Positions 2,656 through 49,939 of a stretch of 64,000 nt of DNA are shown piece by piece. Made by a program: the position numbers and the translations under genes. This DNA is from Halichondria panicea (Eukaryota > Porifera > Demospongiae > Suberitida > Halichondriidae). The notes under the pieces are model-generated. The model saw only the letters and a program-made list of their open reading frames with translations. It was not told where the DNA came from and searched no databases. Numbering within the stretch: position 1 is the stretch's first letter; every line of letters begins with the position of its first letter. Where the stretch lies: NCBI RefSeq assembly GCF_963675165.1, contig NC_087378.1, positions 7,332,273 through 7,396,272 of the forward strand, read 5' to 3'.

Positions 2656-5600
2656 ATGTCTCTTCTAAAGTTTTCAGCAGTGTTGTGTCTAATGCACTTT
2701 ATTCAGTGCAGTACAGGTATTGTTTTGTATATATGCAACTACAGCATTAATAGGAGTATTTACAGCTATAGCTAAGTGCAGCATTTTTAGTGTGTTAACA
2801 TTTTCCTATTCTCTCTGCAGCCCAACCAAATGTGGAGTTTCCAACTCTCGTGCATCGTGTGCAAGAGGACAGTCGTATTCTGAATGTAGAGCTCACTAAG
2901 AATGGAGAAAATGAAGAGGAGGTGGTGGTGCTCGTGACTCCACTCACCTTCAATGAGTACTATGTTCTACGCAAAGGCCTTCTACCACCACAGTTTGACA
3001 GTGTGGACTTGCCAGACCCAGCTGAGTGTAAGTTACAAGGACCCATGCACAAAACTACAGTGCTATACTATTAATGCAAGCTATCATGCACCTATTAGCT
3101 ACTGTGATATCATTTTGCATTTTGCTAGTCTATCAGAGGATCTTTTTAAGTTGTTATAGTTATTTTTCTTCTACAGATGACGTAAATGGAAAACAAGACT
3201 TCATTCGCAATGGACCTATCAAATATGTCTTTGACCCCAGCTCAGAGACAGAAACAGGAAGTATTGAGATCTTATTCAACGATGACTCCATAAACGAGGC
3301 TGATGAAGGATTTCTGTTGCTCATTGAGGTCGAGAAAACAGACCAAAATGTTGCAATTCTTAGAGGGGGCCTCACTCTTGTGATCCTTGTTGACGAAGAT
3401 CGTAAGTAATGTTTCTGGTAGCTACTGCTGTCAGTTCTCAAGTATAAGCTTGCACTCAAGCTACATGTGTTTGCAGTACCACAACAATTCCAACAGAGAA
3501 TTGAGCTAGCTATAACATTATTATAATGGAACACCTACAGAATGAATCATAAACCCTCTCTCTTAGCTCTTCGATTGGGTTTTGAGCAGCCACAGTATGA
3601 AGTACTAGAGGAGAATCGCGTTGTCAACGATTTAATCTACATCACCAAAAATGGGATGGAATCCGAACAGACTCTGCGATTCCTGGTGGAAAATTCGCAA
3701 GGTTCTGCAGTTAGAGGTATGTTTCTACAGTGTTCAATACCCACACCCAAGTATTATTTATGTAATAATTATAATGACAGAAAATGTGTTCAAAACCACT
3801 TCTGTATCAGACAAAAGTTGTTGCCATAAACGTTTGTGAACTTAACACTAATATATCTAATTTCATAGGAGAGGACTACAACGTTCTTGCTAGAACAGAA
3901 GTCAACTTCCCTCCAGACGAAGAGAGAATGGCGTTCAGTTTACAGCTGTTGGATGACCAGTTGCCAGAGGAGACGGAGAGTTTCCAGCTACTGCTAGTGA
4001 CCGAGGATGATCAATCAAACATTTCCTTCAGTCTAACAACAACCACTGTGAATATTGTAGACAATGATGGTGAGTAACTGCAAATCTTGCAGCAGTAAGT
4101 GAGCATGCATGCAGCTTTATTTTCACAAATCTTCTTGCTACTGTGCGCCTACTGTTTTCACCTTAAAATATATGTAGCAATTGTAAACTGACCCAGTCCA
4201 TATAGTGTCATGCTCAATCAAGGAAAATAATTTATTTTTTGCGTCTTTGTTTTTTGCATGCAGTTATGACAGTTGGCTTTGAACAAGCGTTGTACACTGT
4301 GAGTGAAGAAGACAAAGAGGTTGAAGTGTGCGTTGCCATCTCTTCTCCAGCAAACATTGACTTGACTGTCATAGCTACTCTCTCAACCAGTGACGATACT
4401 GCAGAAGGTATACCCAGTGTGTGTATATGCCTCGTAATAGTAAGAACAGCTGCATATGCGTATTGGAAATTGTCCGTGCAAGCATTTTTGTATCATGATT
4501 ATAATAATTATCCCTTCCTCTGTCTATTCAGTATAAGACTAAGTGCTGTGTGCTTGAATGCATTAATTAATTGCTTGTATTCAATCGTGCAGATGGTGTC
4601 GACTACGCTCATATCAAAGAGTTTGTTAGCCTTCCCTCCTACGATGAAAAGACAAGAATCTGCTATCAGATCCCCATCCTAAACAATGAAGATGTTGAGC
4701 AGAACGAGGAGTTCACGGTGATACTGACACCTGGGGTTTCAACCCCACCAAATGTACGGTTCCAACCAGGACAGGTGCAAGTCAGAATAGTGGATGACGA
4801 AATAGGTATACAAATGTAACTATCTTGTAAATCGTTTTGTGCCCTGAGGGAGCTTATCAATAAGCCAAAGAATGATAATTTATAATTCACCGGTAGTGGT
4901 AGTGCAATGGACATATTTTGGCTATGTGTTTTTTTTAGGTTAATTAAATCATGGTTGGTGCCCAGTTGTCTGGTATCATTGTGTACTGTGTGTACAACAC
5001 TGAGACATGTATGTCACCACCTGCAGTGAATGAGTGTCGACTGGGATTGCACAACTGTCATGAGAAGGCTCGCTGCGTAGACACTTACCAGAGCTTTAAA
5101 TGTATTTGCAAGAATGGTTATTCTGGCAATGGTGTTGAGTGCAATGGTAAGAATGGTGTCCTTATTAGATTAATTACCCTTGCATTAGATGTGGTAAGAA
5201 AACAAAGCAGTTGCTTGTAGCTTCAATGCAATAACCATGATTCTGTATTTATTATGAGGTTTTTCAATGGTCTAGTGTTACCAGCATTCGTATAGGTGCA
5301 TACTTGTAATCCTTTGCAATCACTTTGTCTGTGTACAGATTAAATCATGCACACATGACCGTGTATTATTGATTTTCAGACATTGACGAGTGTTTGGACA
5401 GCAGTACTCATTACTGCCATGACGATGCCATTTGTACCAACTTTAAGGGAGGCTTTCGTTGCTCTTGCCCCCAGGGCTACAGTGGCAATGGAATTATCTG
5501 CATCCAAAACAGTAAGACTACTACTCTTTACATTTACATTCACCTGTGCACTATTCGCTTCAATGAATCAACTAGCTAATGTACGTGCATGCATAATGAT

Positions 5601-14615: not shown

Positions 14616-17600
14616 ATGAGTGACAGAGGGAAGATTTCTGAATCCTTTGATGAAATTTTATTTTCATCAAAATTCGATTCTGGTCAGTTTAAGATTCCAT
14701 ATAGAGCATCCATGTTTGCACACTCTAGCTATAATTATTCAATGTAGACATAGCAAGACTGCATGGATCGAGACTAACCTCACACACACACACACGCACA
14801 CCACGCTACCCCCAGGCAACCTAGACAGGGTCGAGGAGTGCAGGTCCACACTGGGTCCTGGGACGAGGGAATTCAACTTATGGACTGCCCCGGATTGTGC
14901 CGGGTTGCCCTATGAGAGCGGGTGCAAGTCGTGGTTCTACTTCAGTGTGACTACTCCCTCTGACTCGTCTGGTCTCGTGCTAAGGTGAGTGAAACACCAC
15001 ACACCAGGCACACCACCCACACCATGCACACCACACACCACCCACACCATGCACACCACACACCAGGCACACCACCACCCACCACACACCACCCACACCA
15101 TGCACACTACACACCACACACCACCCACACCATGCACACTATGCACACCTTAATTATAAGGCACCACTGCGTTTGCTAGAGATTGTGCACAAAACAAATC
15201 AATGTGAGTGAATTGTCCAAGTGGCGCTAGAGTGGTAGTATCTTATGGTGAACTTATAGGGATTGCATATTCTCCTATATAGCTATTACATAAAATAATG
15301 TACTCCTACTCAAAAGTTGGTTTAATTTGTGCAACCTGACAATTAAACATCCATCCCATTGAGTATTGACCTATTGGGTATTAGTGGGACTTTTACCACA
15401 GATGCCTATATGCCAAGCCTACGTACGTACAACATGTATGTATGTATTGGGTATCAATAATTATATGAGGGACTGTTTTCCTAATCTAACAGTTATTGTG
15501 TGCATCGTTCTTCGGGTCATTCCTTGCAAGGTACTAGATCTATCAGTGTTATACTGCTTGGGACTATGCACGGAAACTGATTCGGTCAACTATCAATGCA
15601 ATAGTCAACAACGTAACAAATTTTTGATATCCTTGAATGTGTAGACTTTTTGACCTGTAAACAATTAAATTAAGTGTATGGGGAAAGTTTAATAGTCTAA
15701 AGTTTAATAGTTCTTCAATGACGTACGTGTGTACCACAGGTTGAATGTCCAGAATCTGAATAAGCAGTGTCGACTTTACCAGCAGGGTTGTACCCCCTTT
15801 GTTAGGACGGTGCCAGGTCGTGGAGGCTGGGAGAGACTGAGAGACAAGGTCGAGTATGAGGTGAGGAGGGGAGACCCCTGGTAATTAGAGTGGTGTGCCA
15901 TACTGTGACATGCTCATGGTGTTGGTTAGAAGCACCCCCTTCTGAGGGAGGGGAGACCCCTGGTAATTAGAGCAGTGTGCCATACTGTGACATGCTCATG
16001 GTGTTGGTTAGAAGCACCCCCTTCTGAGGGGGGAGCCTTATGAGTGATAGCATATCAGTCTGGACACGTATACACTGTAACATGCTCATGGTGTTGGTTG
16101 GTAATACATAGTCCAGCTTATAATTATCGTACACATGATTCTTTTAGCACACTTTCCTTTGAATGTATAACAGACAAAATAATTATGTGCATTCAACTTT
16201 TGTCTATGTACTCTTGTGTTTTAAAACCCCTTAGGCCTCTGAGGAAGGTGTGTACGTGCTGTCATACAACCTGACTGTACCTGACTCCCGTAAGATGACC
16301 TTTTACTGTGCCTTCTGTTTCCCTCACTCGTACACTGATTGTCAAAAGCTACTCTCTAAACTTGACGAGCAGTACAGGGGCGTGGCACAGCACTCGGATG
16401 AGGACAGTGTTTACTATCACAGGTACGTACGCGTGACATCGATTACTGTAAATTAAAATGGTGCCAATTTAGTTATTTGTAGCGAATGTTTCTCAAGGAA
16501 CAGTAATTATTACAGTATGGCTGATAATGGGGTTAATAGGGCTAGTAAAAGGAAATGGTAAGGCCTCTAATTTATTGCACAAGGCAAAGCCGAATTCCTA
16601 TATGCCAGTGCTTGTTATGTGTGCTGAAGTCTTTTATTGCACGACTATGGTTGAATGGTAATCCTTATGATGCAGCTTTTGTTGTATTCTTAGTCTTCTT
16701 CTAAAAAAAAACCCAAATGCCATTATTAGTCCTTTCTGTACAAAGTCCAACAACCATAGTTACTATTGTACCGGAAATGATACAGCACTAGATGGTGATA
16801 CAGCACTAGATGGTGCCAGTTTAGTTATACAATACCTACATATTTGGAGGCCAACAAGAACTCTGTGACGACAGATGATCGCTGGTCCTCTCCCCTTGGC
16901 TGTTAGTCGACATTCCTTGTTCTGATAAGGTAACATGGTTGTTGGGTCTACATGATTAGGGGTGTGTATTGTTCTATATGTGAATTGTTTTCGTGGGTAG
17001 CCAGAAGAAAAGTTCCCTCTCAAAATCCAATCACACAGCATGTTTACTATGCTAGTAAACATGCTGTATGGCTATGAACACAATGACTGCTCTGTCCCCC
17101 ATTACTGCCATTACTGTCAGGCACGAGTACAAGCGTTGTGTTACAATAGTAAACTCTGAAACTAAAACTTGTAATAAACTATAATCGATGCTTGGGAAAC
17201 ACGAATTATATGCTCGTACATTCAATGCTCGTGTTGGAAAATATCCCCTCTTGTGAGACAACTATGTATTCTGTAATCAATCTTCTAGTCATGTGTATTA
17301 TGTTCCTTTCAAGTTGCTGAACTAGATCTACATGCATATTAAATTGCATCATCTGCATAAATATCTAAATTATGTTTTGTGTGTGTCGATGGTGCGTATA
17401 TACAGATGTTAGTATGTGATTTTCTCATGTAGAGAGCTTGTTTGCTGGAGTCTCGAGGGCAGACGTGTTGACCTGGTCACAGTGAGCTCTTGTCATGGCC
17501 TGGGGAGGGAGCGAGAGCCACGACTAGACAGACTGTTCCCTGACACTGCCACAGAGAGAGCTCACACCTTTAGTGAGAAAAAGGTGAGAGCTACGAAGCT

Positions 17601-31727: not shown

Positions 31728-34700
31728 ATGGACAGGCCAGGTTTCTTAGTGAATCAGCATCGCTACATACAAACTGAAGGTGAGACTTATACACACAGCT
31801 GCTGTGATAAGATTGCATTTAATACTGGGGATAACTCCAGGGAAACACCTTTGTCAAGTAATATGACAACATGCATTCAATCATAGGTGGTACCCCAACA
31901 TCAGTCAAGCCTACACTGATTGCACGCAGCCCCTACAAGTATCTTGGAGATGTGGAGAGAGATATGGACAGATACAGTTCAAAGAAACCGGCCGCACAGG
32001 CTCAACCACCTGGACACCACTCAAAATCAGTTAACCCCCGAGGGCCTCATTACAGCGGCACACACAGTCAACATGGCTCGTCTTCAAGTACCCACTCCTC
32101 TCTCTCAGACTCCAGTTCGGGGTACAGTTGTCAAATGGAGAATGGCTCGCAACCACTTCGGCAAGAAGACTATCGGTTAACAAATCAAGGACAATATGGC
32201 CACCAGTACGCTGCAGGGCGTCCTGGAGACCCTGGTTACTATCAGCACTCAGATCTAAGGTACGTTGGATCTACAAGACAGCAGTACACCGCTCAATACC
32301 CGGGAAGAACAACGTCTAATTACGAGAAATTTGGACCCACCAGTTATCACGAGCAGCGGAGGGACTATGAGCATCGGCAACCTTACCACCCCCAATACAG
32401 GCATATTTCACGACAACATGGACCCCTCGTGAAAGCTCATTCCGAAGAGACTTTCAGACAAGAAAGAACTATTGATAGTGAGAGAGGATTCTCGTCTTTG
32501 GGTGATCCACCGCCACCACCGGTACAGACACCAGTATACAGGCAAGAGCACCCTCCTATGGGGCAGCCACTTATGACACGGTACACCTACCAAACAGAGC
32601 ACCCAGGACCGTACAGAGAACTGTCTCCAACTTCAACCCAGTACAGTTACAGTACATCTACTACTGCTTATTCGTCTGGCGTGAACAGAACAGACATACT
32701 CTCGGAGAAAATTGAAGGCATGAGAATTCATCTAGTTGACGGTAATATTGAGATTTTGAAGCAGCCTATAGACCAAGTCGTCGATTTAAATGAGAGCGTG
32801 GTGTTCACGTGTGATGCTCGTGTAGTTGATTGTCAAGAAGACCCGAATCTATTGTGGTTTAAAGATCAAGAGCCGTTGATTGGTGAGATCGATTCAACGT
32901 ATGTTATCACAGAGACGACTGAGAAAGATGCTGGTGTGTATCACTGCCTTGTCTCGCACCCTCTGAACCCAACTCAACAGAAAGAGTCCACTTCGGTCAC
33001 TCTCACCATCAACACAGGGGGTTAGTCCACCTCATTGTCATAGTCGGGTAATAGTTTTGCTCCCCTGCAGAGTTGTACTTTAGATGTACTTACGTTAGTG
33101 TAGTGTACTCTTTTCCTACAACAACCTTCTTTTCCTACAACGCTTAGTTTTCAATTTCCCTATCCGTGTTTACTTATTACTCAGCGAACAAGATTTTGTT
33201 ACTTAGTTGTCATATAACCTCCTCCCCTCTCCCCCCAGTCCCTAAGACCACTCCGCCATTGGTCAGTCTCCCGGAGATAGTGAAGCAGCCACTGGGTATA
33301 CTAGCAGCTGTTGTGGGAGAGCCTCTGGAGGTGGCCATACAAGCCAGCGGAGACAATCCACTATCGTGAGTTGAGCCTCTTTAAATGTTTCGTAGCAGCG
33401 TTAAAATTAAGTGCTTGTTTATTCTATAATTATAGTGTTGTGAGAAAGTGTATGTACAAGCTTTCAATCAGAAACTTCCCTTGAGTCACATGTATAACTT
33501 TAACTTGATTCATTAGTCATTAGTGTATACAATTTCCTTTGTATGGTAGATTTGTTGTTGAAGTATACACTTGTTAAATTTGTTGGACAGTACCATCGAG
33601 TACTCATTGAAATTAATTTTATAGGTTTTACTTTTGTTATGATTGTGCATTATAACTTAAGCACTTTAACTGAGCCTAGAGTGTCCCAATTTCAGTATGA
33701 ATAAACTGTATTCGTTTATAGCGTGATGTTTTAATCGTCGCCAATCTTCAGTTTTACTTCATCCAGATGGCTTTTGATGTATTTTCCTCTACTTTACTAC
33801 TTCTCCCCTCAGGTACCAGTGGTACAGAAACTCACAACCCCTGAACTTTGCCCAGTCCTCTATTCTCCGGTTCCCTGCAGCCTCCATTACAGACAGTGGT
33901 GACTACTGCTGTCGGGTGGCCAACGATCATGGCAGCATTCTCTCCAAGGTCTTCACTCTGGAGGTGACTAGGGTTCGAGGTGAGAGACATGTTCCATACT
34001 AGCTGGCACAATAATGAAACTCCTCACTAGTTAATGTGCTATTTCTGTATACTGTTACCACGGGGCAAAGCAGAAAGGAGTAGAACCTTTAGGGAGGACT
34101 AAGTTGGTTTTGAGGCGTAGGTGTAGGTGGGATATACCGTGTAGCTGGTAATTTCCGGGGGGCAAATTATTCGTGGTTTTCGTGGTTGAACACTGGACCA
34201 CGAATGAAGCAACCTTGACTACCTTTACCTGCAGTGCAAGCAACCATGAAAATAAGATCCACAAACTGACTAAATATTGCTCAACCACGAATATTTTGCC
34301 CCCCCCCCCTCCGAAAGTTACCCGCTATACGGTAGTAGTCTGCCAGTGCAGTGGGTTTGTCTGTCTGTGTATTTTAAATCTGCTCACGTGGCTGCCAAAT
34401 CGCTGGGTATGATTATATGCTCCTGTTTTCCTTTTAATAATTTCTTAATAATAATAATTTAGCTACTATTGCTGTTTCTTGCACGTTTTCACCCTCCTTG
34501 CTGTGTCTGTTTAAATGCAGCTGCTGTTGTGGCTGCTGACTTGAGTGATTCGTACCTGCAAAGAGCCAGTGTGGCCATTGCCCAACAAGTTAGGGGCATT
34601 GAAGAACTAGCTCTCACTCTTGGAGTGCGAATACCTCACCCAACTACCTATCAAAGTTTAGCAGAGCAGGTGTTGCACTTGCTCGTGATCTGGAGGGACA

Positions 34701-35734
34701 CTAAAAATGGAACTAAGAAAAGACTTGTTAGTGCCCTAAAACAACTTCGCATTGTGTTGCAAGATTCAGAAAGAAGCCAGGGATATGGCCGGTCAAAGGA
34801 TTTAGAACGAAGCCAGGGGTATGGCCGGTCAAAGGATTTAGAAATAAGCCAGGGGTATGGCCGGTCAAAGGATTCAGATAGAAGCCAGGGGTTTGAACGT
34901 TCAAAGACAGGTGTGTAATATGATTAGGTATGCGTGTGGGGAGTTCACCCCATTGGTAAGAATTCCACTCCCGGCTGTTTTGTTAGTTTTCAATATCCTG
35001 TGTGTACACTAGGCTTACATGTACTGTAGTGAGTCAGGTATGTAGACTACGGCGCTATAGAAGCCTGACATTGATTTGGGTAAGCCCTTTTGTATCCTCT
35101 TTCCTACACGCGACAATTAATAATGGGAATATTAATTTGTTTCCTTACAAAATGTCGGTTGCTCTCTGCACAGCTAAACTACAGTTTTTGAAGCAGCCAC
35201 AGAGTGCAAAGGTCATATATGGACAATCGGTCAGTCTCCATGTTGCCGCTTCTCCAGTAACACCCTCAACAAAGTATCAGTGGTATTTAAACGGGAATCC
35301 TCTGGTCGGACAAACCTCTTCTCATTTCACCATCTCTTCAGTTGTTGACTCGGATGTCGGAGACTACGTGTGTGTTGTTGTCAGTGGCAGCGACACTCGA
35401 ATTCAGTCAGAACCAGCTGTTATAGAATTGACGGAGATCTCTCACCAGAGGAGAGGGGTACCTGCCCCTGCCCCCCAGAGCCAAGTTTTCGAGCCCCCCA
35501 AACGCTATCTTATCACTCGTGGAGCTCCTGCTGACAGGGAAGCAGATGTTTTGTTGTTGGAGCCTAGGCAACCGCCGGTCACTAAAGCAGGTATCAATGC
35601 CCAAGATGTGTGCTATTTGCATTATTTTACTATTTCTATATACATTCTTTGGTTGTGTGGCGAATATTTAAGGGGGTTAGTGATCATCACTTGATATTAA
35701 TTTTGTGCAGCCATTAAATCTTCTATTATATAAG

Positions 35735-35794
<60 letters not shown>

Positions 35795-36070
35795 GCTCCA
35801 CCCAGTATTGTCATTGACGAGCACCCAGCCTCGGTGGAGATTGAGCCAGGCGACCCTTTGACCCTCCGCTGCCGAGCCTCCAGTAGTCATGGCGACATCA
35901 AGTACAGCTGGTACTTCAACGGACTATTGATCGAAGAGGAACAATCGGACTATGTGCTTAACTTTTTCACTGACGAAGATGAGGGCTATTACACATGCAA
36001 AGTGAGCAATCAGTACGGATCAGTTACCTCCAACACGGCTCAAGTCAAAGCTAAACTAGACTCAGACTAA
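31728..36070 (+). CDS. Cytoplasmic Ig-Ig-Death-Ig-Ig protein
   Basis: Seven exons: 31728-31779, 31887-33020, 33239-33365, 33813-33979, 34521-34910, 35174-35590, 35793-36070; 854 residues. No signal peptide or membrane segment is seen, so it is probably intracellular. Residues ~20-270 are disordered and rich in Tyr, Gln, His and Ser. Then come Ig 1 (VVFTCDA, LLWFKDQ, DAGVYHCLV), Ig 2 (YQWYRNSQPL, DSGDYCCRVAN) and a death-fold domain in exon 5 (YLQRASVAIAQQV, GIEELALTLGV, YQSLAEQVLHLLVIW). A 12-residue tandem repeat and two more Ig domains follow (YQWYLNGNPL, DVGDYVCVV; YSWYFNGLLI, DEGYYTCKVSN). The Ig domains are I-set-like. MALT1 also combines Death and Ig domains but has a paracaspase, which is absent here. 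A scaffold or adaptor role is inferred. Upstream non-coding exons are likely. Confidence 0.82.
34135..34334. repeat. MITE copy 4 (TACCGTGTAGC variant)
   Basis: Left end TACCGTGTAGCTGGTAATTT; right end reverse complement TACCGTATAGCGGGTAACTT. A poly-C/G stretch and ATTCGTGGTT/AACCACGAAT follow inside both ends. It lies in the intron just before the death-domain exon. Confidence 0.8.
34769..34907 (+). repeat. Coding tandem repeat, four 36-bp units
   Basis: Four in-frame copies of ERSQGYGRSKDL-type units (the last one is DRSQGFERSKT) directly follow the death domain. The first three units are nearly identical at DNA level. Each has an SQ pair and the first three a YGRS motif, so they are possible phosphorylation or binding sites. 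Confidence 0.9.
35735..35792 (+). repeat. CA microsatellite forming a splice acceptor
   Basis: An uninterrupted CA run ends in ACACAG, which is the acceptor of the last exon of the Ig-Death gene at 35793. There is almost no ordinary pyrimidine tract. Confidence 0.85.
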
Positions 36071-36363: not shown

Positions 36364-38255
36364 CTAAACTTTAGCAGATGTTTTAGATTCTAAAATTAAT
36401 TGTAGGGCAAAATTTTTCTCAAAGTCATTGGTGTACACAGATTCACGATTGGGTCCACCTACAGGGTTGGTGTTTTGAGGTATTTCCATTTTTATAGTCT
36501 CTTCTTTTTTGTTCTCTATGTCTTTAGAATCTGTCCTGTGTCTTTGGTATTGTAAGACAATAGCGATAGCTACAACAACAGCGGCTACTATCAGCACGAT
36601 CACGACCACTGCTCCGACAGCACCTCCGACAGCACCTCCAACAGCACCTCCAGATACAGGTACATTAGGATTCAGTGCCCCCACCATGCCTGGAGTACAA
36701 ACACGAGCATGTGTAAAACAAAATTATTATAGCAGATGGGGTCGTTTAAACAAGCATACCGTTATAAAGTAATCCTGGAAATGCATCAATAATTAGTTTG
36801 GATAATCTGACACAAATTACGATAGCTACTGATTAAGCGCAAGGGTATTGAATTGGTAATGCGATAACAGTCGTGTGGGTATAATAATTATATACCTAGA
36901 GAACTCAAAGTAGTCCCATCGTTGGTTGTCATAGTATTGTTGGTTGTAACTGGAAATGTAGTGGCTGGAAATGTAGTGGGTGGAGGAGGCATTGTAGTGA
37001 GATCTGTATATAGGGTAATTGTCATGGGATTATCATTGAAATTGTACTTCTTATTATATTAGACAATGGGCATCACATGTTGAAATTAACACAAACTCAC
37101 ATAAGTACAAGGAAGTAACTATCTATTCCCACTTAGGATGTGGGGGATACAACAGCTGTCGGTGTGTGTGCGTACGTGTGTGTGTGTGTATAACTCACCT
37201 TGATGAACTGTCACACTAAATATCTTCCAAAAAGACCTAAAATCGCTTCGCCTCGGTTGCCTCACTTCACTTGCCACATAAATGAGCTGAGCACTGTCAC
37301 TTGCATTTAGTTGTAGCTCAACTTTAAAGTCGTAAAATAAAAAGCTTTGTCGATTAACAACAACTCCACTTTTATTAGGACAATTGCTGTTAGGTGTGTC
37401 ATCACAATTATACAGTAGGTTGGTTTGAGTTCCCCGATGTATTGTAAATATGTTGATGTCTTCTCTGCAGTTGCAACACCCGCCTGGAGAGTACATGATT
37501 CTAGTATCCAGGGTAACTCGTCCCTCTGTGACATTCAATTCTTCGTAGCAGCTGTTGCTACTTAATACCACACCCGGGCTGTACGTGAATGGAAATGGTG
37601 CGTCGCAAGTAGCAAAACGAGCCAAACCTGAAGTAGAGTACAATTTAGTAAACTATATACACGAAGATAAGATAGGGCGATTATCATTGAACAACTTACC
37701 ACTGACTATCACACAAGATATTGGTAACATGATCCCTTCAGTATTGGAGCAAGAGTAACGTCCCTCATCACTGGACTTAATACTTTCTATTCGCAGAGTT
37801 CGATCGTTGACCATTGTATAATTACCACCATCAAGGACAATAGCCTCTCCGATATCTTCACCACACGAATGTTTAAACACTGTGAAAGTCGGTGCAGTAA
37901 CAGAAGGGGGACATTCCAATTCAACAGAATCTCCAACCAGATGCTCTAAAGGTGGACAGACATAGTAGTATAAGTGTGGGCATGCACGTTTTGATCACTT
38001 TTATTAGAGTTTTCCAACCAGATACATGTATGACTACTCAGTTATTCGATCATCAAAATTTAAATTCTTAGATAAATAAATAATATGCTTACCATTTATT
38101 TGTTTTCCCAGGCAATTATTCAACAGACTGGTGCAGCCTGGGTTAATAGGTCCCCCAAGCCTGTCAGGATCATAGCATTGCAATTGCTGGCTACAGACGA
38201 GTTGAAGCACACACACAGACAGGTAGAGAACCCCTAACGATAGTCTTCGCAGCAT
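36364..38255 (-). CDS. Ig-family single-pass receptor A
   Basis: Five coding exons on the minus strand: 38255-38093, 37945-37700, 37627-37199, 37003-36896, 36689-36364; 423 residues. Exon 1 is a signal peptide plus a short two-cysteine N-terminus (LQCYDPDRLGG). Exon 2 is an Ig domain (VELECPP, SSDEGRYSCSN). Exon 3 is the unusual shared domain (EGRVTLDTRIMYSPGGCCNC, then VELQLNASDSAQLIYVASEV). Exon 4 is a Thr/Pro-rich mucin-like stalk. The last exon holds a Gly/Ala/Val membrane segment (VVVIVLIVAAVVVAIAIVL) and a ~60-residue tail with ESVYTNDF, whose Y-x-N pattern is the kind bound by Grb2 SH2. All introns are phase 1. A non-coding first exon ends at 39188. It is convergent with the Ig-Death gene. 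The ligand is unknown. Confidence 0.88.
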
Positions 38256-39187
38256 CTGAGAGAAGTTACATGTGTACAACACTTGTATCATAAATACATC
38301 GAATGTATTGATTTATAGAAATGATCATGCTTAGTGTTTATGTTCAAGAGTGTTGATGTTACTCTATTGGTTGCAATACCCCATGGGCCAAATAATAAAA
38401 TTATTGATATTAAACTGCAACTATTAGGGTAGAGCCCTCGTTAGTTAGTGGCTTCACATGAATTAACCCACACAAGAGAGGGCCTCTCCCAATGAATGTG
38501 AGGTGAGGGGAAATAATGTGTGAAACAAACAAGTCTTGAATATCACCAAAGTGGATTAGAGGGATTTCCCAACAGAAAGGAAATGAAATTCAATTTATAT
38601 CTATCTTGGGCTCCCTGAAAGATCCCTGGTTAGGTTAGTCCTCCCCCGTGTGTGTGGGCTGCTACACTATTGAGACACCCATCATGTAGTCAGTACAATA
38701 GGAGATTATACTGATACATGTGTACAGGTACACAGGAACATATTAAGGGCCTGAGGGGACAGATTGTTATCATTCTAGTAGCAACAGTGCATAATGGGTT
38801 ACCTATAAGTAAACGTAAACCCTAACACACTTTTTCCTATTACGAAATCTCGCTGTAAGAATAGGATAGCGCCTAGTGGCTGGGATAGGGGATTTTCAAT
38901 AAGAAAACTGTGAACGATAAAAGTAAACAGTACAACAGCTAGTGTAAGAATGTGAGAACAGGAAGAGCATTAATTTATGATTATGAAAGGTCACATTTAA
39001 TATTAATGACCATTCTTTAAGCATGTCTTCTGGTACTTATTCAGATAGCACAGAATAAGACATATTTAGCTAAAATTATACAGCAACAGTTTATACATGC
39101 TCTAGCTAACTAGAGAGCTATGTGGTTTTAATACATCACCACATAGATCTAATTTAATATAAACAAGCAGCAGAAAATTCCACTCAC

Positions 39188-39290
39188 TGTTGATATATAA
39201 TGATGTGTCCTCCTAGGAGCCAGGTACCGGATACTGCAGTGGAGGTTAGCTGTTCTGTTCTAGCACACACTGTACATACATAAAATGTGA
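39188..39290 (-). promoter_or_regulatory. Probable 5' UTR exon and promoter of receptor A
   Basis: Read on the minus strand this block ends ATCAACA|GTGAGTGG, a good donor, and could join the acceptor AACTTCTCTCAG just before the ATG at 38255. The block (CTCCTAGGAGCCAGGTAC, GCAGTGGAGGTTAGCTGTTC) is strongly conserved at 49538-49650, upstream of the receptor A pseudogene, while neighbouring DNA differs more. Confidence 0.6.
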
Positions 39291-40882
39291 CCTATCTTTT
39301 ATTAGCTAACTGAGGTACATCCCCGGCCTCTGCAATACAAGGTACGCCCATTAGCTCATTAATGGCCGCCCTCAAAAAATGCTTGCTCGCTCTACAAAAT
39401 CGGCCTGGGAACAGTGTAGTCTGGCCTAGCCTCTACACAGGCTCTCCTTTTTCTGTTCTTTATCACAATCGTTCAATAAGATAAAATACTGTATTAATTG
39501 TTCAATGAGATAAAATACGGTATTAATTGGAGGAATAAAGAAAGAAATAGACGTAAAGTTAGGAAAAAGGAGAGCCTGTATCGGGAAGTCGCGTGAGGGT
39601 AGAAGGGTGGTAGAAGGGTGAAAATGAGCGTGGGCATGCTGAGCTAGAGATGTTGGACTGCCCACGCAGAGATCTATGACTAATAAAACTTTGCCTGCAG
39701 CAAGCTGGACATGGACTTGGAACTGGAAGTTTGCAAGCACTAGAGCTAGCTATACCTTAGGCTTAGCTAGATGATCTACTAGTCTAGATTGTGTGTTCAG
39801 ATTCTATCCTATTCTATCAGACTATCACCTTTTCTTGTGTCTTTCTACATGCTATAGTCTATACAGGTTAGATCAAGAATAGCTTAGTCATCATTATCAT
39901 ATAGCAGGTAGCTACTGCCACCAGAGCTGGCCACGCTGGTTCTCGATATAAATATATATGTCTTTCTATGATTTATGGATGAACAGTGACAACAGCAAGA
40001 AAAAGTAAGGCCTGGGAACGAGGCTAGTCTGGCCCAGAGGAGGATGGACACGAAGCCAAAAAGTTAATAATGACGTAGTCTTTATTAAAATAATTAAAAT
40101 ACTTGAACCTTGAACCTACTTTATCAAGCTCTTTTCTAGCCAGCAGGCCACCTTTTCATTCTGGAAACAAGAGTATACTTAGATGATGATAATTATAGCT
40201 GAGCTATACATTCACTCTATAGCACGGTAGCTCCTACTTTATAAAGGTCAGAGGTCAGTTTGACATGACAGAACTACGACCTTTGTGAGAGGTCACCCCT
40301 TTTAGGCACTGCACGATTTCTCTGGAGGGGCGCAGTAGCTAAAAGTTAACTAATTTGCAGCAGCAATAACATGAAGGGGCTACTTTATCACAAGAATCAG
40401 GGCGCGATGTGCAGTCAAACTTGCAAATTTACTGCACAAAACATAAGCTCACGTGATGATTATTAGTGACCTTTTGACCCTGTCCACCCTCCTCTGGTCT
40501 GGCCCCAGACCACTCCCTTGCACGTGATCTGACATGTGCCGGGAGGAGTCTGGCCTCGAGACTAGGAACAGTCCCAGACCACTCCCTTGCACGTGATCTG
40601 ACATGTGCCCGGGAGGAGTCTGGCCTCGAGACTAGGAACAGTGTATTTGTGTTCCCTGCGGCCTGGGATCGAGGTATCTATAATTATTTTGCTGGTAATA
40701 ATATTACCAGCAAAATAACAGACAGGAGCAGATTACAGAACTGCTCCTGGGGCGTATAAAGTATATAGGCATATAATTATGGTATTATATTAATTGCCTT
40801 ATTGCTCACAGAAAAATCTAAGCAGCACAAAGCGCATGCAAATGCATGCAACACAACAGGATAAAAATATTGATTTTATGCA
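39291..40882. other. Repeat-filled spacer between receptors A and B
   Basis: No gene seen. Contents: an inverted-repeat element about 39430-39585 (ends CAGGCTCTCCTTTTT / AAAAAGGAGAGCCTG); another about 40030-40500 (ends CCAGAGGAGGATGGACA / TGTCCACCCTCCTCTGG); two 69-bp tandem units at 40504-40641; and a short perfect palindrome around 40685-40719 (TTATTTTGCTGGTAATA arms). Confidence 0.65.
40504..40641 (+). repeat. Two 69-bp tandem units
   Basis: The unit from CCAGACCACTCCCTTGCACG to GGCCTCGAGACTAGGAACAG occurs twice in a row with a single-base length difference. Confidence 0.88.
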
Positions 40883-41344
40883 CTACGCAGCAATAGACAC
40901 AGATTCAAGAGTTGTTGACAGTTCATGAGGAGCAGCTTGTCCTTTAAAACTTGAGAAATTTTTCGACCCTCTCCTGTCATCAATCTCTGCATAAATCGAA
41001 TCGTCGTTTTTGTTTTTGAATGGACTTTTGATACCGGTGGTATTATGTTTTCTTCTTCCGTACTGGCAATAAACAAATACACTTCCAATCATGACTAGTA
41101 GTGCTAGTAGACAAACAGCTGATGTCACCACCCCAACCACAAGTGCTATAAAAGAGAGATAGGCACTTTACTAAATTTGGTATTAAACTTAAGGGGATAT
41201 TCAAAATTGAGACTGTAAAATGTACCCATCTAGTAACGTGGCTGGGTATTAAATAATTATACAAATTTACCGGTAATTGTACTAGGCTCAGCGGGTGTGT
41301 TTACTGTTGATAGCTCAGTAGTAGAGGACGTGGGGTCTGTGTCT

Positions 41345-41439
<95 letters not shown>

Positions 41440-42709
41440 ATGTGTGTGGTGTGTATGGCAAAAACTCACCAGGTGGGTCCGAGATGAGCACAGTAAAATC
41501 TTTGTTGTATAAATTTGTGCTACTAGGGCTCATCGGCACAATTCCAGCCACAACGAGTTCAAATTTACTCTCGTTGACTTCCATACACAGTGGTGGTATT
41601 GTAAGAGTAAAATTAAAAGGATTTCCAATTCGTATAAATTCTCCAGATATATTACGACAAGTCCTGTTTTGATCACAACTATACCACCGTTGAAGATTCA
41701 AGTTATTAAAAGCATTGACGAAATTAAATCTAGCAATTTCCTGTTTACATTTGCACACACTGGTCGAGTCAAACCTGAGTCTAGTATTGAACGTCACCGG
41801 GTCACCTCTGAATACTTCAACCGTTTCAACACAAGATGAGCCCTCTTCTGTCACCATACACGACTCGAATTCAACAGGATCTGAAACGAAAAAAACAGTT
41901 GATAATTAATTGCTACCTAGCCAGATACTATATACACTGTGATGTAGTCAATTTCAATGTCCGATGCATCTACATTATAATACATATATCAAAGTATTAT
42001 TCTGGACGGATTTTGGACTACAAACAAACCCTAAAATACATTTAGTTATTAGCTTACTTATCACTAGCACACAGAATGTCATCGCCTCTGGTCCAGTACA
42101 TCGGTACAGCCCTTCATCTTGAGGCTGCAAGTTGATGATTCGGAGTGTATTACCACTGACCGTATATTTACTGCTGTCACCAGTGTTAAACGTTATGAAA
42201 GTTGCGCTCATATCCGTAGCTGCGCTCACATCCGTAGCTAACTTTCTCTGAGTTAGAGTCTCTCCAGGAGGACAACGCAGATCGACGTCAGAAGCAACAC
42301 CTCGCTCCTCCACTTGCATTATGTAGGGGAAAACATCAAGTTCAAGCATGCAAACTATGTACTTGCACACCGGAATCAATCTAGAGACAATTAAAGCCAC
42401 AAAGTAACATGTGAAAAATGCTCAGCATACCAGGTTTCGTGTGTGGGGAAGGGGAACTTTGATATACAGGTGATTAATATATTCATCCAAAGAGGTATTC
42501 TAGGAAAATATGAATTTTGTAAATGTACCACTGACTAGGTAAAGAGTAAGAAACTGAATACAAACATGTTAGTAGCTATCGAGCAGCTAACCTGTAGCTT
42601 TATCACACTCAGTTTTAAATGCCTGATCAGCACAATCACAAGACTGTGCAAGTGTGCCTGCCATCCAGCACAGTAAGCAGAGCAGTCCCAAAACCTGTCT
42701 GTTGAACAT
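40883..42709 (-). CDS. Ig-family single-pass receptor B with ITIM-like tail
   Basis: Five exons on the minus strand: 42709-42592, 42312-42058, 41880-41470, 41336-41271, 41145-40883; 370 residues. Order: signal peptide (VLGLLCLLCWMAGTLA) with a short Cys-rich N-terminus (CDCADQAFKTEC); an Ig domain (VDLRCPPGE, PQDEGLYRCTG); the shared unusual domain (GDPVTFNTRLRFDSTSVCKC, ending FTVLISDPPG); a short Ser/Thr stalk; a membrane segment (VVTSAVCLLALLVMIGSVF); a basic stop-transfer YGRRK; and a ~60-residue tail with DDSIYAEIDD. S-I-Y-A-E-I fits the ITIM consensus [SIVL]-x-Y-x-x-[ILV], which in vertebrate receptors recruits SHP phosphatases. It is a diverged paralogue of receptor A with the same exon plan and all phase-1 introns. 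The acceptor of exon 2 (ATGCAAG) has a weak pyrimidine tract. The intron before the stalk exon is mostly CA repeat. Confidence 0.87.
41337..41469 (-). repeat. Microsatellite intron of receptor B
   Basis: On the minus strand this 133-base intron is GTGAGTTTTTGCC followed almost wholly by CA units, ending ACACAGACACAG at the acceptor of the stalk exon. Confidence 0.85.
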
Positions 42710-43346
42710 CGTGACCTGTGTGAACAACAACACAGCTCTAATTATCGCAGCATAGTTCACAACAATCACTTGTGATGTCCATTATCTAACACTGTATGGA
42801 CAGCCCCAGGAGCACATGATTACCATAACAACCGTGCACTATGAAAATAGTTAGAGTTACTGTTTATTGTCGAACACTACACAATGAACCAAAGAAATGA
42901 AAGTATTTGTGTTACAAGCAGGAATTATGCACATTGTGAAATAATTTGCAACTGTACTATACAGTCAAATTGAACGAAAGGTTTCTATTTACTGTGTGTG
43001 TGTGTGTGTGTGTGACGAAATGCTACGCAATACAATTAATACAATTGCCCTGTACAGGAAGTACGAACAGACATAAACAAATATTAAACACACTCATGAC
43101 ATGATCATTTCAACCACAAGCATGCCAAAGTCATTACTCTGACATACTAACAGGCACCACTGGGAATATTGGTCTACAATACTTCAGGAGAGGAGTTGTA
43201 TTAATAGGTGCACACTCCCACTGAGTCAATACCTCTAGCTATGTAAAGATACAGCAAGTCCGACATAGCTTGGCACTCACATGTAATTGTCTGGCTTAAA
43301 CTGATTAACGTATAAAAAAACATTATGTGGTGCTGCTATAAAATAA

Positions 43347-43680
43347 TACCATAAGACCTCGATTTAAGGCGACACTTTAAATAATTACAAAGCCAGAGGT
43401 CGGTTCTTTTAGAGGTTGAAAATTATGTTGAAGTCCTGGTGTCGCATATTAGTCTACTTGCCTCGATTTTAGGCTGCTTAAATATGTATTTTCTAGTGGG
43501 CTAGAATTGAGGTTAGGGTGTGGCTACATTTACCTCCATTTAGGACGCGACATTAAAAATTAAATTAATTGTCAACACAGCAGCTGTCGCTACTTTTAGA
43601 GGTCAGAAAATTGCCTTGTCCATGGAGTCTCGAGGGTGTCGTATATTTGGAGGGTTGCCTTAAATTGAAGTCTTACGGTA
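43347..43680. repeat. MITE with TACCATAAGACCTC ends
   Basis: Left end TACCATAAGACCTCGATTTA, right end reverse complement TACCGTAAGACTTCAATTTA, both followed by AGGC. Internal TTTTAGAGGT words appear on both sides. TA at both edges. Confidence 0.75.
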
Positions 43681-44094
43681 ATTATGGGCGGAAATGTCCA
43701 AGTGGCACTTTAAATTCAGACGATTTATGCGATACACTTGTATCTATACTCTTCTCAAAACAAAGCTCCCTAACAGGCTTCAAAAATACATTGACACTTT
43801 TCTGGAGAAGGTATAAACAAACAAACACTCAATCTACTGAACCATAGCTAGTGTGCAACTCCATTGTAAATGGTTCATCTACAATTCACCGGTAGTGTAG
43901 TGTGGGGTTGTGCACATCCTATAACACCTCTACTCAACCATTAACAGATATAATTCCAAGAGAACTATTCCCATCATTTTCACACCTTTCTCTGATTTAT
44001 GGTGACCCCCTCTCACATTGTAGCTAGACACACAACTCACTTTGCTCAGCCTGTCTCTTGAGTACGTACACACGTCGTTCTTCGATTCTTCATA

Positions 44095-44332
44095 TACCGT
44101 ATAGCGCGAAATTTTCGAGGCACTTATATTTCGTGGATTGGCCTCTAAAAACCATTTCGTTGCACAATGTTCGCGGAATAGCTGCTTACCGGAAGCCACG
44201 CCTTTAAATCTTTGCATGATAGCAGGTAATTCTAATTAAAGAACACTTTTTGTGGACTTAATTTTCGTGTAGAATTCTAACCCACGAAATCCGCGAAAAT
44301 TAAGCCCCTCGAAAATTTCGCGCTATACGGTA
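44095..44332. repeat. MITE copy 5, best-preserved TIRs
   Basis: Both ends read TACCGTATAGCGCGAAATTT and continue identically through TCGAGG. Internal TTCGTGGATT/AATCCACGAA-like blocks are present. This is the cleanest member of the TACCGTATAGC family in the window. Confidence 0.88.
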
Positions 44333-44751
44333 CAAGTTATAGTTATACCACACCCATACATGTAATATCTAGCCACCGGCTGGGAAATACCCATACAGAC
44401 AAATGATATTCACTGACACGGCATTCTTGGAACCACAATAAGAGTTCTTGTTAGAACTTTAATGCTATAGCTAGCTATAGGTGCGTAGCTATATTAAATA
44501 GCTAGATAATGCCTGCACTACTGCATACTCAAATCCTGCCAGCTGCATCTCCTCATGCAAAGATTGTGTTAATTACTACAGCTGTAAAACACACACACAG
44601 TTAGCTTTACAGTGAGGCATTCATGTTTAACCGCTATTTTAATCGATTGGCAAAAATTAAACAGAATTAAAACAGAACATTAAAATATCGGCATGATAAT
44701 TATAGGGTAAGTATAGGACAATCATTCGACATCATTTTTTCATAGTGAAAG

Positions 44752-45456
44752 TTAATAGTCTGTTGTAGTCATTTCTTCCCTGAGGCCATATGCACTGTTC
44801 TCAGTTGTTAGAGGGTCTACCTGACGGAAGGTTGACATAGCGATGAGGGGATTCAGTGGGCACAATGTCTGCCAGAAAGAAAACCGTAAAACAGTTTTAG
44901 TGATATAGCATCCAAACATAATAATTATTATTTTAGATCATATTTTACAGTAGAGGTAAGGTGAACAATCCAAACAATACGATGGACGAAAACTAAATAG
45001 AGTAATAGTGTACATGCAGTCTTCCAAGACTCCGGGAAGTGCACTTCATCACACTCTATATGGATCCTATGGGATTAATTTAACAGAAAGACTTATAGCA
45101 ATCTCTGATTCTGTATGTACATTTAAGTCAGTGAAGATGGCATGTAACAGAGACAATAAACATATAGATAAGAAAAGACTAAACTTACTAACTGTGATCG
45201 TCAATGACAGTGACGATGGGAGGTAAACATGATTATAATATACTCACTGCATTCTTACCGGACATTGGAGTGAACGAGTTGATGACAGGGGCAGGAGAAT
45301 TGTCCCCCTCAATAACGAAACGATCAGTGGAGCACTCTTGCATCACCTCACAACTATACCTCCACCCACACCACCCACATGCGAACTCTGACCCTATTCT
45401 GGCCGCAATACATTCTGAACATCCACTGGCCAAATCACGACAATCATACAGCGTCA
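44752..45456 (-). pseudogene. Fragment of the receptor tyrosine kinase: PSI exon joined to tail exon, kinase missing
   Basis: Minus strand. 45456-45259 copies the PSI exon of the kinase gene at 61332-61141 ([25 protein letters not shown]), still open, with a 6-bp in-frame insertion and intact AG/GT. 44868-44752 copies the last tail exon (52528-52410), but a one-base insertion in the CTACCTGACGG region breaks the frame. Between them are stretches resembling kinase-gene introns (near 45000-45060 like 53725-53770; near 45104-45180 like 57163-57230). All exons for IPT, membrane and kinase regions are absent. It is a collapsed duplicate rather than a working gene. Confidence 0.8.
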
Positions 45457-46387
45457 CTGCATGTGTATTTTATGGTGTACATGTAATGAATGACAAAATT
45501 ATACTACAAAAAATTTAGTTCATAGAATACCCAAATGTATCTAGATTAAGGGTGCTGTGAGCAAACGGCAGGTTAACACGAAACAGAAAAACAGACGGGA
45601 ACAGAAAAAGCAAACAGCCCGACCTTGAGAGTTGAGAATGATGGGTTTAATGGTATACCAACCCTCCCCATTTCATCTATTGCATTTAAAGTCAAGTATA
45701 CACTGAACATTGGGGCCATGCCGATATAAATTTATGACTTACATGGACTGCATGTCGCATGGTGGATCGACGTAACAGTACTTGGTTTGGCTTTACTATA
45801 GATACCGTAGACGCGCGCGTTATATTATAAGCGGAGGCACCTATAATCCCACAGGAACGACATGTCAGCGCTTAAGAGCGCCTAATAGAACCTTTTAGTG
45901 TGCGCCATTTAGTGAAACGCAAAACTTGTGCGCTCAATGCCATTAACAATGGCTCTTTTGCAGCTGCTGAGCTTACCTTCACTTTTGACAGTATGTTAGC
46001 AGACACAACATATATAAATCAGTTTGGAGACCTGCTGTAGGATAGACTACTGCTAGAGCTGATTACTAAATAAAGAGTAATTCAGTAAGGATCAAGACAC
46101 AGTTGGACCTAATTAAACTTAACAATGAATGGCGCCTAATAGCGCGCGCATATACGATTTTGTATATATCATACTGTGCTTGAGGGAGGCCTCATGCATG
46201 TTGTCCTTTTTCCTGCATGTGCTAGCAGGAGTTAATTCATACCGATTAGCTGATGAATGCATGGGGATGGTGGGAATGGGAAACCTCAAATCCTCTAGCA
46301 TTATGGTTCTAGCAAATTATGCTCAGGCATTAGTATAGATATCAGTGTGCATGTGTGCGTGTGTGTGTTTGCGTGTTTACAACTCAC
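45457..46387. other. Spacer between kinase fragment and receptor A pseudogene
   Basis: No gene seen. Possible diverged inverted ends with GCGCGCG cores near 45813 and 46141, enclosing unclassified sequence; weak evidence for a mobile element. Confidence 0.4.
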
Positions 46388-47365
46388 CTTGATTGACTGT
46401 CACACTAAATATCTTCCAGAAATACCTAAAATCGTTTCGCCCGGTTGCCTCAATTCACTTGCCACATAAATGAGCTGAGCACTGTCACTTGCATTTAGTT
46501 GTAGCTCAACTTTAAAGTCATAAAATAAAGAGCTTTGTCAATTCACAACAACTCCATTTTTATTAGGACAATCGCTGTTGATCATCACAATTATACAGTA
46601 TGGAGTTGATTGGGGTTTCCAAGCGTATTGTAAATATGTTGATGTCTTCTCTGCAGTTGCAACACCCACCTGGAGAGTACATGATTCTAGTATCCAGGGT
46701 AACTCGTCCCTCTGTGACATTTATTTCTTCGTAGCAGCTGTTGCTACGTGATACCACACCCGGGCTGTACGTGAATGGATTTGGTGGGTCACAAGTAGCA
46801 AAACGAGCCAAACCTGAAGTAGAGTACAATTTAGTAAACTATGGATGAATGAATGAGGTATTAGATTATCATTGAACAACACTGTTTAATTGTATTTCTA
46901 TATACTGCTTACCGCTGACTACCACACAAGATATTGGTAACACATTCCCTTCAGCATTGGAGCAAGTGTACAATCCCTCATCACCAGGCTGGACATTGTT
47001 TATTCGCAGAGTTTGGTTGTTGATAATTACCACCATCAGGGTCAATAGCCTCTCCGTTGGGATCTCCATCACACGAATGTTTGAATACTCTGAAAGTCAG
47101 TGCAGCAGCAGAAAGATCACATTGCAATACAACAGAATCTTCAACCATGCAGATACTCTAAAGAGGAATCAAATGCAAAATTTAATGAGTGTTGCAAGCT
47201 GCGCTGTGCTAATGCCTCTCGCCATGTTATGCTTTCGCTCTAGAGTATTATAGTAGGGAGAATAAGTTTTTTCTATAATATTAAAATTTACATTTGAATT
47301 TCATGCAAAGAAAGAGTGTTATAATCATATCTATCTGACTTGTGTGCATGCATCTATTGTATATG

Positions 47366-48009
47366 CAGGGGCGTAGGCAGGAATTTGAGGAAGGGGGGGC
47401 TGAGCTGTTAGGGCGCCAGAAACTACTTCGCGCGGAGCGCCGAAATGTTTCGTCTACCGGAAGCCACACCCCTAATTAATGACTCATTTCCGGGAAGTGA
47501 ACTCTATATCCTGCCAACAATCAGCTAGCTAGTAATAATTATAGCTATAATACTTTTAGTCTACGTGGATGACGCCTGGCAAATTCATCAACAATGTCTT
47601 CATCAGTACTCAGGCTGGCAATACTAGAGCTTGCCCTTGAGAAGTAGCGGTCCAGTTTCTGTGACATGTTGCTGCTTTCAATCAACCTTCTCAATCAACC
47701 TCTGTGGTAGATTATTAATCAGTTGCACATTGCGCATGTGCAAAGAAATAGCCACACCTTGCTTCAATTAATAATACTGCTAAAAGCTAGCTAGCTAGCC
47801 GTACGTAGCTAGCTAGCTTAGTTGCACTAAAGAATTAAAGTTACTAGTATAGTATAGCTAGCTCTTGGACATGCTGTTTGTCTGCCACTAATCTATACCA
47901 GTAATTCCCAGGCTGAAGACTCATCAGAGAAGGTGGGGCTCTTAGTGTGGTTTTTGCAGAGAAAGGGGGGGCTCCAGCCCCCAAAGCCCTCCCCCTCCCT
48001 ACGCCCCTG
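47366..48009. mobile_element. Non-autonomous DNA transposon, CAGGGGCGTAGG ends, 5-bp target duplication
   Basis: Inverted ends CAGGGGCGTAGGCAGG and (reverse complement of the right end) CAGGGGCGTAGGGAGG, flanked by ATATG at 47361-47365 and 48010-48014. 644 bp, no long reading frame. It is inserted in the first intron of the receptor A pseudogene; the intact receptor A lacks it. Confidence 0.85.
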
Positions 48010-48557
48010 ATATGGTATCAATGAAGTATTCTGTGGCTTACCAGGACCTCAAGAAAGATGAAATTAGATCCACTGGAATAAGCTGGGTGTGTCGATCAAG
48101 TTCACAAAATAATGGCTACTAAATAGCTAGCTGCTTTAGCAGCTCTTTTCTGACTCTTGTAGCTAGCTAACTAGCGCTTTAGTGCAAGGCTAACTAATAG
48201 AAACTTTGTGCAAACAAAAGATGCTACGAAAGATTCTGAAGAGGTTGCAATAACCTTCAACGTGAGTCAATAACTTGAGAAAGAAGCTTTAGTTTGCTAA
48301 TCCACAAATCAAAATCCAAGAGAACTTGACGTGGCTAGAAGCCTATAGAAGCTGTTAGTTTTCGTCGCATTGCAACTGTTGAGCAGTTACAGCTACTCTG
48401 TCTACATAATAGTTAGACACTGTTTAGGAAGTTTCTACATGATTTAGAAGCCCAAAGGGCTGGTTGTAGTATCCCGAACGCAGTGAAGGTTCTACTAGCC
48501 CTGAGGACTTCTAAATCATGTGGAAACTTCCTAAACAGTGTCTAAGCATTTTAGATC

Positions 48558-48662
48558 ATAGCCTCGATCCCAGGCCGAGTTTTCGCTTTTATAACGGTTA
48601 GGCGAACAACTGGTTCGCCTAACCGTTATAAAAGCGAAAACTCGGCCTGGGATCGAGGCTAT
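48558..48662. repeat. Perfect 50-bp inverted repeat with 5-base loop
   Basis: The arm beginning ATAGCCTCGATCCCAGGCCG is mirrored without mismatch, with AACTG as the loop. The flanks share TTTAGATCATA. The outer ends resemble the hairpin at 30887 and single GCCTGGGATCGAGG-like stretches near 40003 and 40660. It is in the first intron of the pseudogene. Confidence 0.92.
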
Positions 48663-49939
48663 TTAGATCATAGCAACCATGAGTATTTAGCCAATCAGAT
48701 TTGAATGTTCTTATCTAATCTTTGCTACATGATCTTCTAAGTAAGTACATGATTAAGCCAATCAAATTGCAGTATTTATGGCAAACATGATCTAAAACTA
48801 GACACTATACTCTGAAGGGAGTATGTGGTTATAAAATCACGTATAGATGTATACCATTTATTTGTTTTCCCAGGCAATGGTTCACCAGATTGGTGCAGCC
48901 TGTGTTAATAGGTCCCCCAAGCCTGTCAGGATCATAGCATTGCAATTGCTGGCTACAGACGAGTTGAAGCACACACACAGACAGGTAGAGAACTCCTAAC
49001 GATACTCTTTGCAGCATCTGAAAGAAGTTACATATAATTATATCGAGTATATACACCGACTTTATTGTACTACAAAAAATTATAGTGATTGTAACTCAAC
49101 TGCCCCATGCATGCAGGCCAATGAATAAATTGTTGTTAGGGTAAAGCCCTCGTTAATTAGTTAGTGGCTTCACAATTAACCTACATATAAGAAAGGGCCT
49201 TTCCCAATGAATGTGAGTTGGATGTGTGAAACAAACAAGTCCTGAATATCACCAGAACTGGGATGAGTGCATGTATGTGATTGCATTGCAAATGCGAAGA
49301 GACGTTTTGTAAATGCATGATCTTGGGTCTGGTGCATTAAGGTTGCATATCATGGGGGGTAATTTTATTAACTTATTCAGAGCCCAGAATGTGTTAAAAA
49401 TAAATATTGGCAAGATATAATTAGCTAAAATTCTACAGCAACAGTTATACATGCTACTACAGAGCTAGCTATAGATCCATGTGGTTTAAATACATGACTT
49501 TTGTGCCACATAATTGTATATACAAGCAGCAGAACTCACTGTTGGTATAATGATATGTCCTCCTAGGAGCCAGGTACCCGATAGTGCAGTGGAGGTTAGC
49601 TGTTCTGTTCTAGCACACACTGCATGCATGTACATACATAAAATGTGACTAATCTTATATATAGATCCAACTTAATTAAGCAGGGAATTATAAGTCATAA
49701 TTTCCAGGAAATTACCTGAGGATACTAGATCTATTACATGCAACTGATGTAATGTTTCTAGTCTAGTTAGCCGATAAAAAATGGGTTCTAAATCAGTTAA
49801 ATCATGTGCGTATCAATGCAGCCATGAACTGTTTACAACCCATTCAGTAGATTCTTGTGTCCAATCGCTAAGCCTCAATAGGTCAATGGGCATGGTCTAA
49901 AGAGTGCAACTGCAGCAAAGGACGTCGATTCCACAACGC

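Follow-up and report, generated by a model that had tools for sequence, protein, structure and literature searches.

A small immunoglobulin-superfamily receptor cluster with an ITIM-type tail in the demosponge Halichondria panicea

Does a sponge locus of linked immunoglobulin (Ig) receptors combine a common ectodomain plan with tails that signal differently? The question arises from a stretch of 64,000 nucleotides of the Halichondria panicea genome (contig NC_087378.1 of assembly GCF_963675165.1, termed C2 below; C2:7332273-7396272), which we refer to as the window and in whose coordinates positions are given unless a contig is named. It holds two transmembrane receptor genes, A and B, a pseudogene copy of A and a secreted relative, S; a search of this one assembly (131.5 Mb, 39 contigs) added a third receptor, C, so that five members were found. 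They are marked by a second ectodomain, D2, and the D2-bearing cluster spans about 61 kb, with A, B and C on the minus strand and S on the plus strand. The gene cluster is real, and so is the match of the tail of B to the consensus of the immunoreceptor tyrosine-based inhibitory motif (ITIM). As the best overall explanation, held at a little under even confidence, we propose that A, B, C, S and the pseudogene form a small, locus-specific family of type I Ig-superfamily (IgSF) receptors of this demosponge.

Members of the cluster

Receptors A (36364-38255, minus strand, 423 residues) and B (40883-42709, minus strand, 370 residues) are each encoded by five exons without stops, with GT/AG splice sites throughout and every intron in phase 1. 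Their common plan comprises a signal peptide (predicted from the hydropathy of the N-terminus), an I-set-like Ig domain (D1), D2, a Thr-rich stalk, a membrane helix and a short tail. In A, exon 1 (38093-38255) encodes the signal peptide and a short Cys-containing N-terminus, exon 2 (37700-37945) the Ig-like D1 (Pfam Ig_3 E-value 9.3e-5, below the curated cut-off), exon 3 (37199-37627) D2, which has no Pfam match and a low-confidence model resembling a V-type Ig domain, exon 4 (36896-37003) a Thr/Pro-rich stalk and exon 5 (36364-36689) the membrane segment and a tail with ESVYTNDF and TIKMEI. The corresponding exons of B encode the signal peptide and Cys-containing N-terminus (42592-42709), D1 (42058-42312), D2 (41470-41880), a short stalk (41271-41336) and the membrane segment with the tail bearing the ITIM-type SIYAEI (40883-41145). 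Apart from its N-terminus, each protein has one strongly hydrophobic segment, with a hydropathy of 3.72 in A and 2.88 in B, values that also bound the range over A, B and C. No charge was found in the membrane-helix core of any of the three receptors; by reading, C carries E and R at the outer edge. The closed exon models and their GT/AG sites confirm the sequence-only reading that A and B follow one exon plan with phase-1 introns, and both motifs it had named, the ITIM consensus SIYAEI in B and ESVYTNDF in its place in A, were located in the translated tails.

The cluster extends past the right end of the window, to receptor C, which lies 7-9 kb beyond that end on the strand of A and B (C2:7403450-7405496, window-equivalent 71178-73224). 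C is a newly found, intact member: its six exons, two of them for the stalk, have all introns in phase 1 and encode 369 residues without a stop, with the tail motif ISIYGEEE. A consensus D2 used as the query against the assembly matched the genes already known five times and gave a sixth hit, of E 0.34, at C2:7404590-7404886. With a profile combining A, B, S and the pseudogene, this D2 of C was scored, as one of six loci, at 8e-6; the exon upstream of it reached 0.0027 with a D1 profile. Seven genome searches, each with a single natural protein (full-length A, B, S or C, or the D2 of C) or one consensus, found no D2 outside the cluster in the 131 Mb assembly, and none turned up in two pieces flanking C (7.0 and 3.4 kb). 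Distant members may be missed, because C itself was reached only at E 0.34, with the consensus query. The idea of a large multigene family defined by D2 was rejected, no copy having been found outside the cluster at the search sensitivity used. A single weak match outside the cluster extends into D2 (C4:2770588-2771121, E 0.098); its sequence was fetched and is not D2-like by profile. The other outside matches (on C5, C11, C13, C14, C17 and several more) touch just the end of D2 together with the stalk or membrane segment. The whole-assembly search for the shared domain that had been put forward earlier yields, at this sensitivity, one further member, C, and none beyond the same cluster.

The secreted relative S (11786-14327, plus strand, 468 residues) has six open exons with intact splice sites and intron phases 1, 1, 1, 1 and 0. 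Exon 1 (11786-11879) encodes a predicted signal peptide, exon 2 (12169-12417) the Ig domain D1 (Pfam Ig_3 E 1.7e-13, over the cut-off), exon 3 (12714-13103) the D2 common to A, B and C, exon 4 (13309-13596) a third Ig-like domain (Pfam CD47 V-set, 22.3 bits for the whole protein with a cut-off of 21, and 17.6 bits for the domain alone) and exons 5-6 (13731-14327) a last domain without a Pfam match, followed by a stop and no membrane segment. S thus keeps the D1-D2 order of the receptors and adds an Ig-like and a last domain, both missing from A and B. No membrane helix was found in S, where no hydropathy window beyond the hydrophobic N-terminus exceeds 1.66. A secreted relative had been placed at 11777-14327 in the sequence-only reading; its secreted form and its D2 hold, the gene model starts at 11786 and the two extra domains amend that description. 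By eye, the last domain of S looks like one that other sponge receptors (L010 and L011) carry next to the membrane.

BLASTP matches show that D1 and D2 of the family members are homologous by common ancestry: D2 of S matches that of A at E 1e-9 and that of B at 6e-5, D2 of A matches that of B at 3e-6, and the two D1 domains of A and B match at 8e-9. The Pfam Ig match of D1 is over the cut-off in S and below it in A, B and C, and a three-row D1 profile (A, B, S) run against the PDB gave contactin-2 as its best match, at E 4.2e-15. D2 matched nothing in Pfam when taken from A, B or S, had a V-set match below the cut-off in C (E 0.071) and gave no significant match in a PDB profile search (best E 1). 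An AlphaFold2 model of the D2 of A, computed from a four-row alignment, is all-beta apart from short helical turns. In a Foldseek search with this model, 47 of the 50 matches listed were antibodies or T-cell receptors by title, the rest being 5kwy_C, 5kwy_D and 2ben_A. A V-like Ig fold is our best guess for D2 from this modelling.

The pseudogene (46388-49017, minus strand) carries stops and frameshifts, its exon borders having been set by reading and then checked. Exon 1 (48855-49017) agrees with that of A at 155/163 bases (95.1%), the frameshifted D1 exon (46913-47157) at 197 of 238 aligned bases, and the D2 exon (46388-46813), with frameshifts and an in-frame stop, at 391 of 423 (92.4%). 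Comparison of A with the region by blastn gave three blocks, with identities of 82.5%, 74.2% and 79.7%, and no counterpart of the stalk and membrane/tail exons of A; the stretches joined to A are 46352-47163, 48852-49254 and 49412-49660. These features bear out the earlier claim of a broken third copy. Noncoding identity amounts to 92/111 bases in an intron (82.9%) and 175/236 in the upstream/intron sequence beside exon 1, so that D2 and exon 1 have changed less than the introns and D1 as much as they have. In-frame pieces of A and the pseudogene (75 codons of D1 and 130 of D2) gave Nei-Gojobori dN/dS ratios of 1.05 for D1 and 0.53 for D2. Nonsynonymous change was faster in D1 (about 30/172 sites) than in D2 (19/309; Fisher p 1.4e-4), as expected if the outer domain faces a changing partner. 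Synonymous change did not differ between the domains (p 0.44), and within each domain the difference between synonymous and nonsynonymous change was not significant (D1 p 1.0, D2 p 0.15).

Tail tyrosines and candidate signalling partners

The tail motifs ESVYTND(F) of A, SIYAEI of B and ISIYGEEE of C have the core S-[I/V]-Y in common, and the residues after the tyrosine differ (TND, AEI and GEE in A, B and C). Some shared context by residue class at positions -2 and -1 arose in 0.19% of shuffled tail triples, and some shared two-position context within -2 to +3 in 1.5%. From these sequences it is likely, not certain, that a tail tyrosine is common to A, B and C, the counterpart of SIYAEI in A being either ESVYTND or TIKMEI. 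Neither an immunoreceptor tyrosine-based activation motif (ITAM) nor a hemITAM pattern was found in the three tails. Other sponge receptor tails (L010 and L012) show repeated N-x-A-Y or D-A-Y-G motifs.

Possible readers of such motifs are encoded in the same genome. Two SH2 matches and a protein tyrosine phosphatase (PTP) match lie in order at C3:8404573-8406287 and constitute a SHP2-type phosphatase gene, the second SH2 piece of which matches PTPN11 (E 4.1e-58) ahead of PTPN6 (5e-50). Three open frames for SH2-kinases lie at C2:7250-7256 kb, 76-82 kb left of the window, and one kinase frame near C2:7448 kb, about 50 kb to its right; one of these four was run through phmmer and matched Src best, the other three being assigned by reading. 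Within 200 kb around the cluster lie five of the genome's 71 SH2 matches. This linkage of kinases to the cluster is suggestive only, because arithmetic from the 71 matches leads one to expect an SH2 gene at such a distance for roughly a tenth of all loci.

In the scheme that we propose, D1 and the possibly V-like D2 would recognise either a soluble ligand or a partner on another cell, Src-type kinases would phosphorylate the tail tyrosine, and the residues at +1 to +3 would choose its SH2 reader. The AEI of B would suit inhibitory docking of the SHP type, and the GEE of C and TND of A other SH2 proteins, an assignment that follows the general preferences of SH2 domains. S would act as a decoy or a ligand.

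Weighing the explanations

The explanation that we prefer, while giving it not quite an even chance, is that of a receptor family with diversified tyrosine signalling, in which a common ectodomain plan is joined to differing signal outcomes and which works like the Alr and FcoR clusters discussed below. A split of signalling output among A, B and C is, on their tail motifs, plausible but unproven, and a role of the cluster in self/non-self or microbe sensing is conjecture. Unlikely, in our judgement, is the more specific proposal of a sponge ITIM/non-ITIM cluster in which one tail tyrosine was kept while the residues read by SH2 domains were swapped; sponges would then already have split inhibitory from non-inhibitory outputs, a private V-like domain would serve recognition and S would be ligand or decoy.

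Several results weigh against diversified tyrosine signalling. The ITIM consensus fits 306 of 3940 six-frame tyrosine contexts in the window and arises in 5% of shuffled B tails. Without gaps, the tails match one another over 6 and 8 residues no better than expected by chance, the best matches of length 6 having been equalled in 959 of 5000 shuffles for A-B, 2021 for B-C and 2004 for A-C, and MAFFT pairs the tyrosine-free TIKMEI of A, rather than ESVYTND, with SIYAEI. The model of the D2 of A is of low confidence (mean predicted local distance difference test score 59.7, predicted template modelling score 0.55), and its best Foldseek match has E 0.0018, with none at or below 0.001 and root-mean-square deviations mostly of 8-10 Å. 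Positive selection on D1 was rejected at the dN/dS of 1.05 between A and the pseudogene, and loss of constraint after the death of the copy could explain part of the D1 pattern.

The genes may instead encode ordinary adhesion or scavenging receptors; the YAEI of B would then serve as a YxxPhi sorting signal or match by chance, and the paralogs would form no signalling pair. YAEI fits YxxPhi, a pattern that arises in 29% of shuffled B tails, against the 5% for ITIM, and contactin-2 and DCC head the PDB matches of the D1 profile, with titin, DSCAM and Robo next. Sponge IgSF proteins are described mostly as adhesion molecules (PMC11999971). The tails speak differently, as S-[I/V]-Y is present in all three and YxxPhi in B only, and we regard this explanation as possible, if doubtful. 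Signalling could also proceed through the tyrosines without an inhibitory arm, all three tails docking Src-type SH2 domains or adaptors and none SHP2. The Src-type kinase genes on both sides of the cluster would agree with this, as would the IYGEEE of C and pYAEI, which we take to resemble Src substrates and a Src SH2 ligand, respectively. Set against it are the fit of SIYAEI to the ITIM consensus, the presence of the SHP2-type gene and the frequency with which an SH2 gene would be expected this near, and we judge it rather improbable. That the genes are decaying duplicates without function would account for the one broken member of the five found, whereas the other four, A, B, C and S, keep open frames and intact splice sites, and the identity of A to the pseudogene is higher in D2 and exon 1 (92.4% and 95.1%) than in the intron (82.9%); this we consider very improbable indeed.

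Known systems and neighbouring genes

The sequence-only reading had seen in this locus the logic of vertebrate paired receptors (KIR, LILR, SIRP and FcR-like). That comparison holds for the tandem, related IgSF genes, of which one has an ITIM and others do not, for the soluble relative and the pseudogene and for the SHP2-type gene. It fails at the ITAM and the charged membrane core of a partner, neither of which was found here, and at the near-identical ectodomains, which in the sponge are strongly diverged, at 20-35% identity overall (31-33% for D1 and 21-33% for D2 between A and B, depending on the method, and 20% for D2 between A and C). Chance also weighs against this reading, as an ITIM arises in 5% of shuffled B tails. 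Membership in the vertebrate-type paired receptors is not supported; A, B or C may pair with adaptors by some other route than a charged core.

Closer parallels, should the cluster work as proposed, would be invertebrate allorecognition candidates, judged by their described features. Hydractinia Alr genes are likewise clustered and encode single-pass IgSF receptors with V-set and I-set type domains and reported ITIM/ITAM motifs, accompanied by putative pseudogenes (PMC12065747, PMC11067881, PMC11999971), 44 gene models of the Alr cluster being regarded as likely pseudogenes (PMC11067881). Alr, however, has tens of highly polymorphic members, and the sponge cluster three transmembrane receptors, one secreted relative and one pseudogene. 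Botryllus FcoR are Ig receptors whose tails bear an ITIM, a hemITAM or a core tyrosine motif, and these motifs are given for both FcoR and Alr candidates (PMC12065747). FcoR are described there with a V-type Ig domain, sushi, two C2 Ig domains and a long tail, unlike the sponge receptors with their two domains, short tails and no sushi match. The Geodia cydonium Ig receptor tyrosine kinase (PMC12018476) is a sponge surface receptor with an Ig-like domain as well, but it is a kinase receptor, and Pfam gave no kinase match in A or B. Candidate allorecognition proteins are stated not to be conserved between sponges, cnidarians and ascidians (PMC12065747). No published sponge locus of this kind was found in the literature on sponge Ig/ITIM or invertebrate paired receptors, as covered in part and mostly outside subscription papers. 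If our explanation is true, the ITIM logic known on cnidarian and ascidian candidates would extend to a further, early-branching animal phylum, and the cluster, as its tail motifs suggest, might represent an early form of the receptor pairs that switch immune responses on and off. It also names specific tails (A, B and C) and a specific SHP2 gene as testable candidates.

Around these genes the window contains further fragments. Beside A, at 31862-36069 (plus strand), a weak Death-domain match (E 0.0025, below the cut-off) accompanies three Ig matches; if they belong to one gene, the arrangement may be reminiscent of a MALT1-type architecture. A Plexin-repeat (PSI) fragment (E 0.0019, below the cut-off) lies between B and the pseudogene at 45230-45465 (minus strand), and a weak match to a cytosolic carboxypeptidase N-terminal domain (E 0.0033, below the cut-off) at 14818-16430 (plus strand). 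A lone Calx-beta exon was found at 4206-4682 (plus strand, Pfam E 2e-8). Calx-beta is a domain of sponge aggregation factors; a link of these to the cluster was rejected, this exon being the single one in the window and the other listed Calx-beta matches lying elsewhere (150 of 645 candidates scored). Calx-beta exons interleaved with Ig exons occur at C5:1.96-2.12 Mb and C1:16.2-16.4 Mb.

Across the genome, Ig_3 gave 1082 candidates, of which 150 were scored, all over the cut-off, and dense Ig arrays lie on C1, C4, C5 and C9. At C4:335-600 kb a tandem gene array with a period of about 8 kb encodes sushi repeats followed by an Ig domain and a PTP domain, the Ig domain being placed, by reading, after the membrane segment; further PTP matches are arrayed at C4:1.27-1.38 Mb and 2.1-2.6 Mb. 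On the contig of the cluster itself, at C2:659 kb, a multi-exon gene for a silicatein, one of a group of demosponge enzymes, supports the sequence-only reading of the locus as a sponge's; the encoded protein has the serine active site DCGASYAF.

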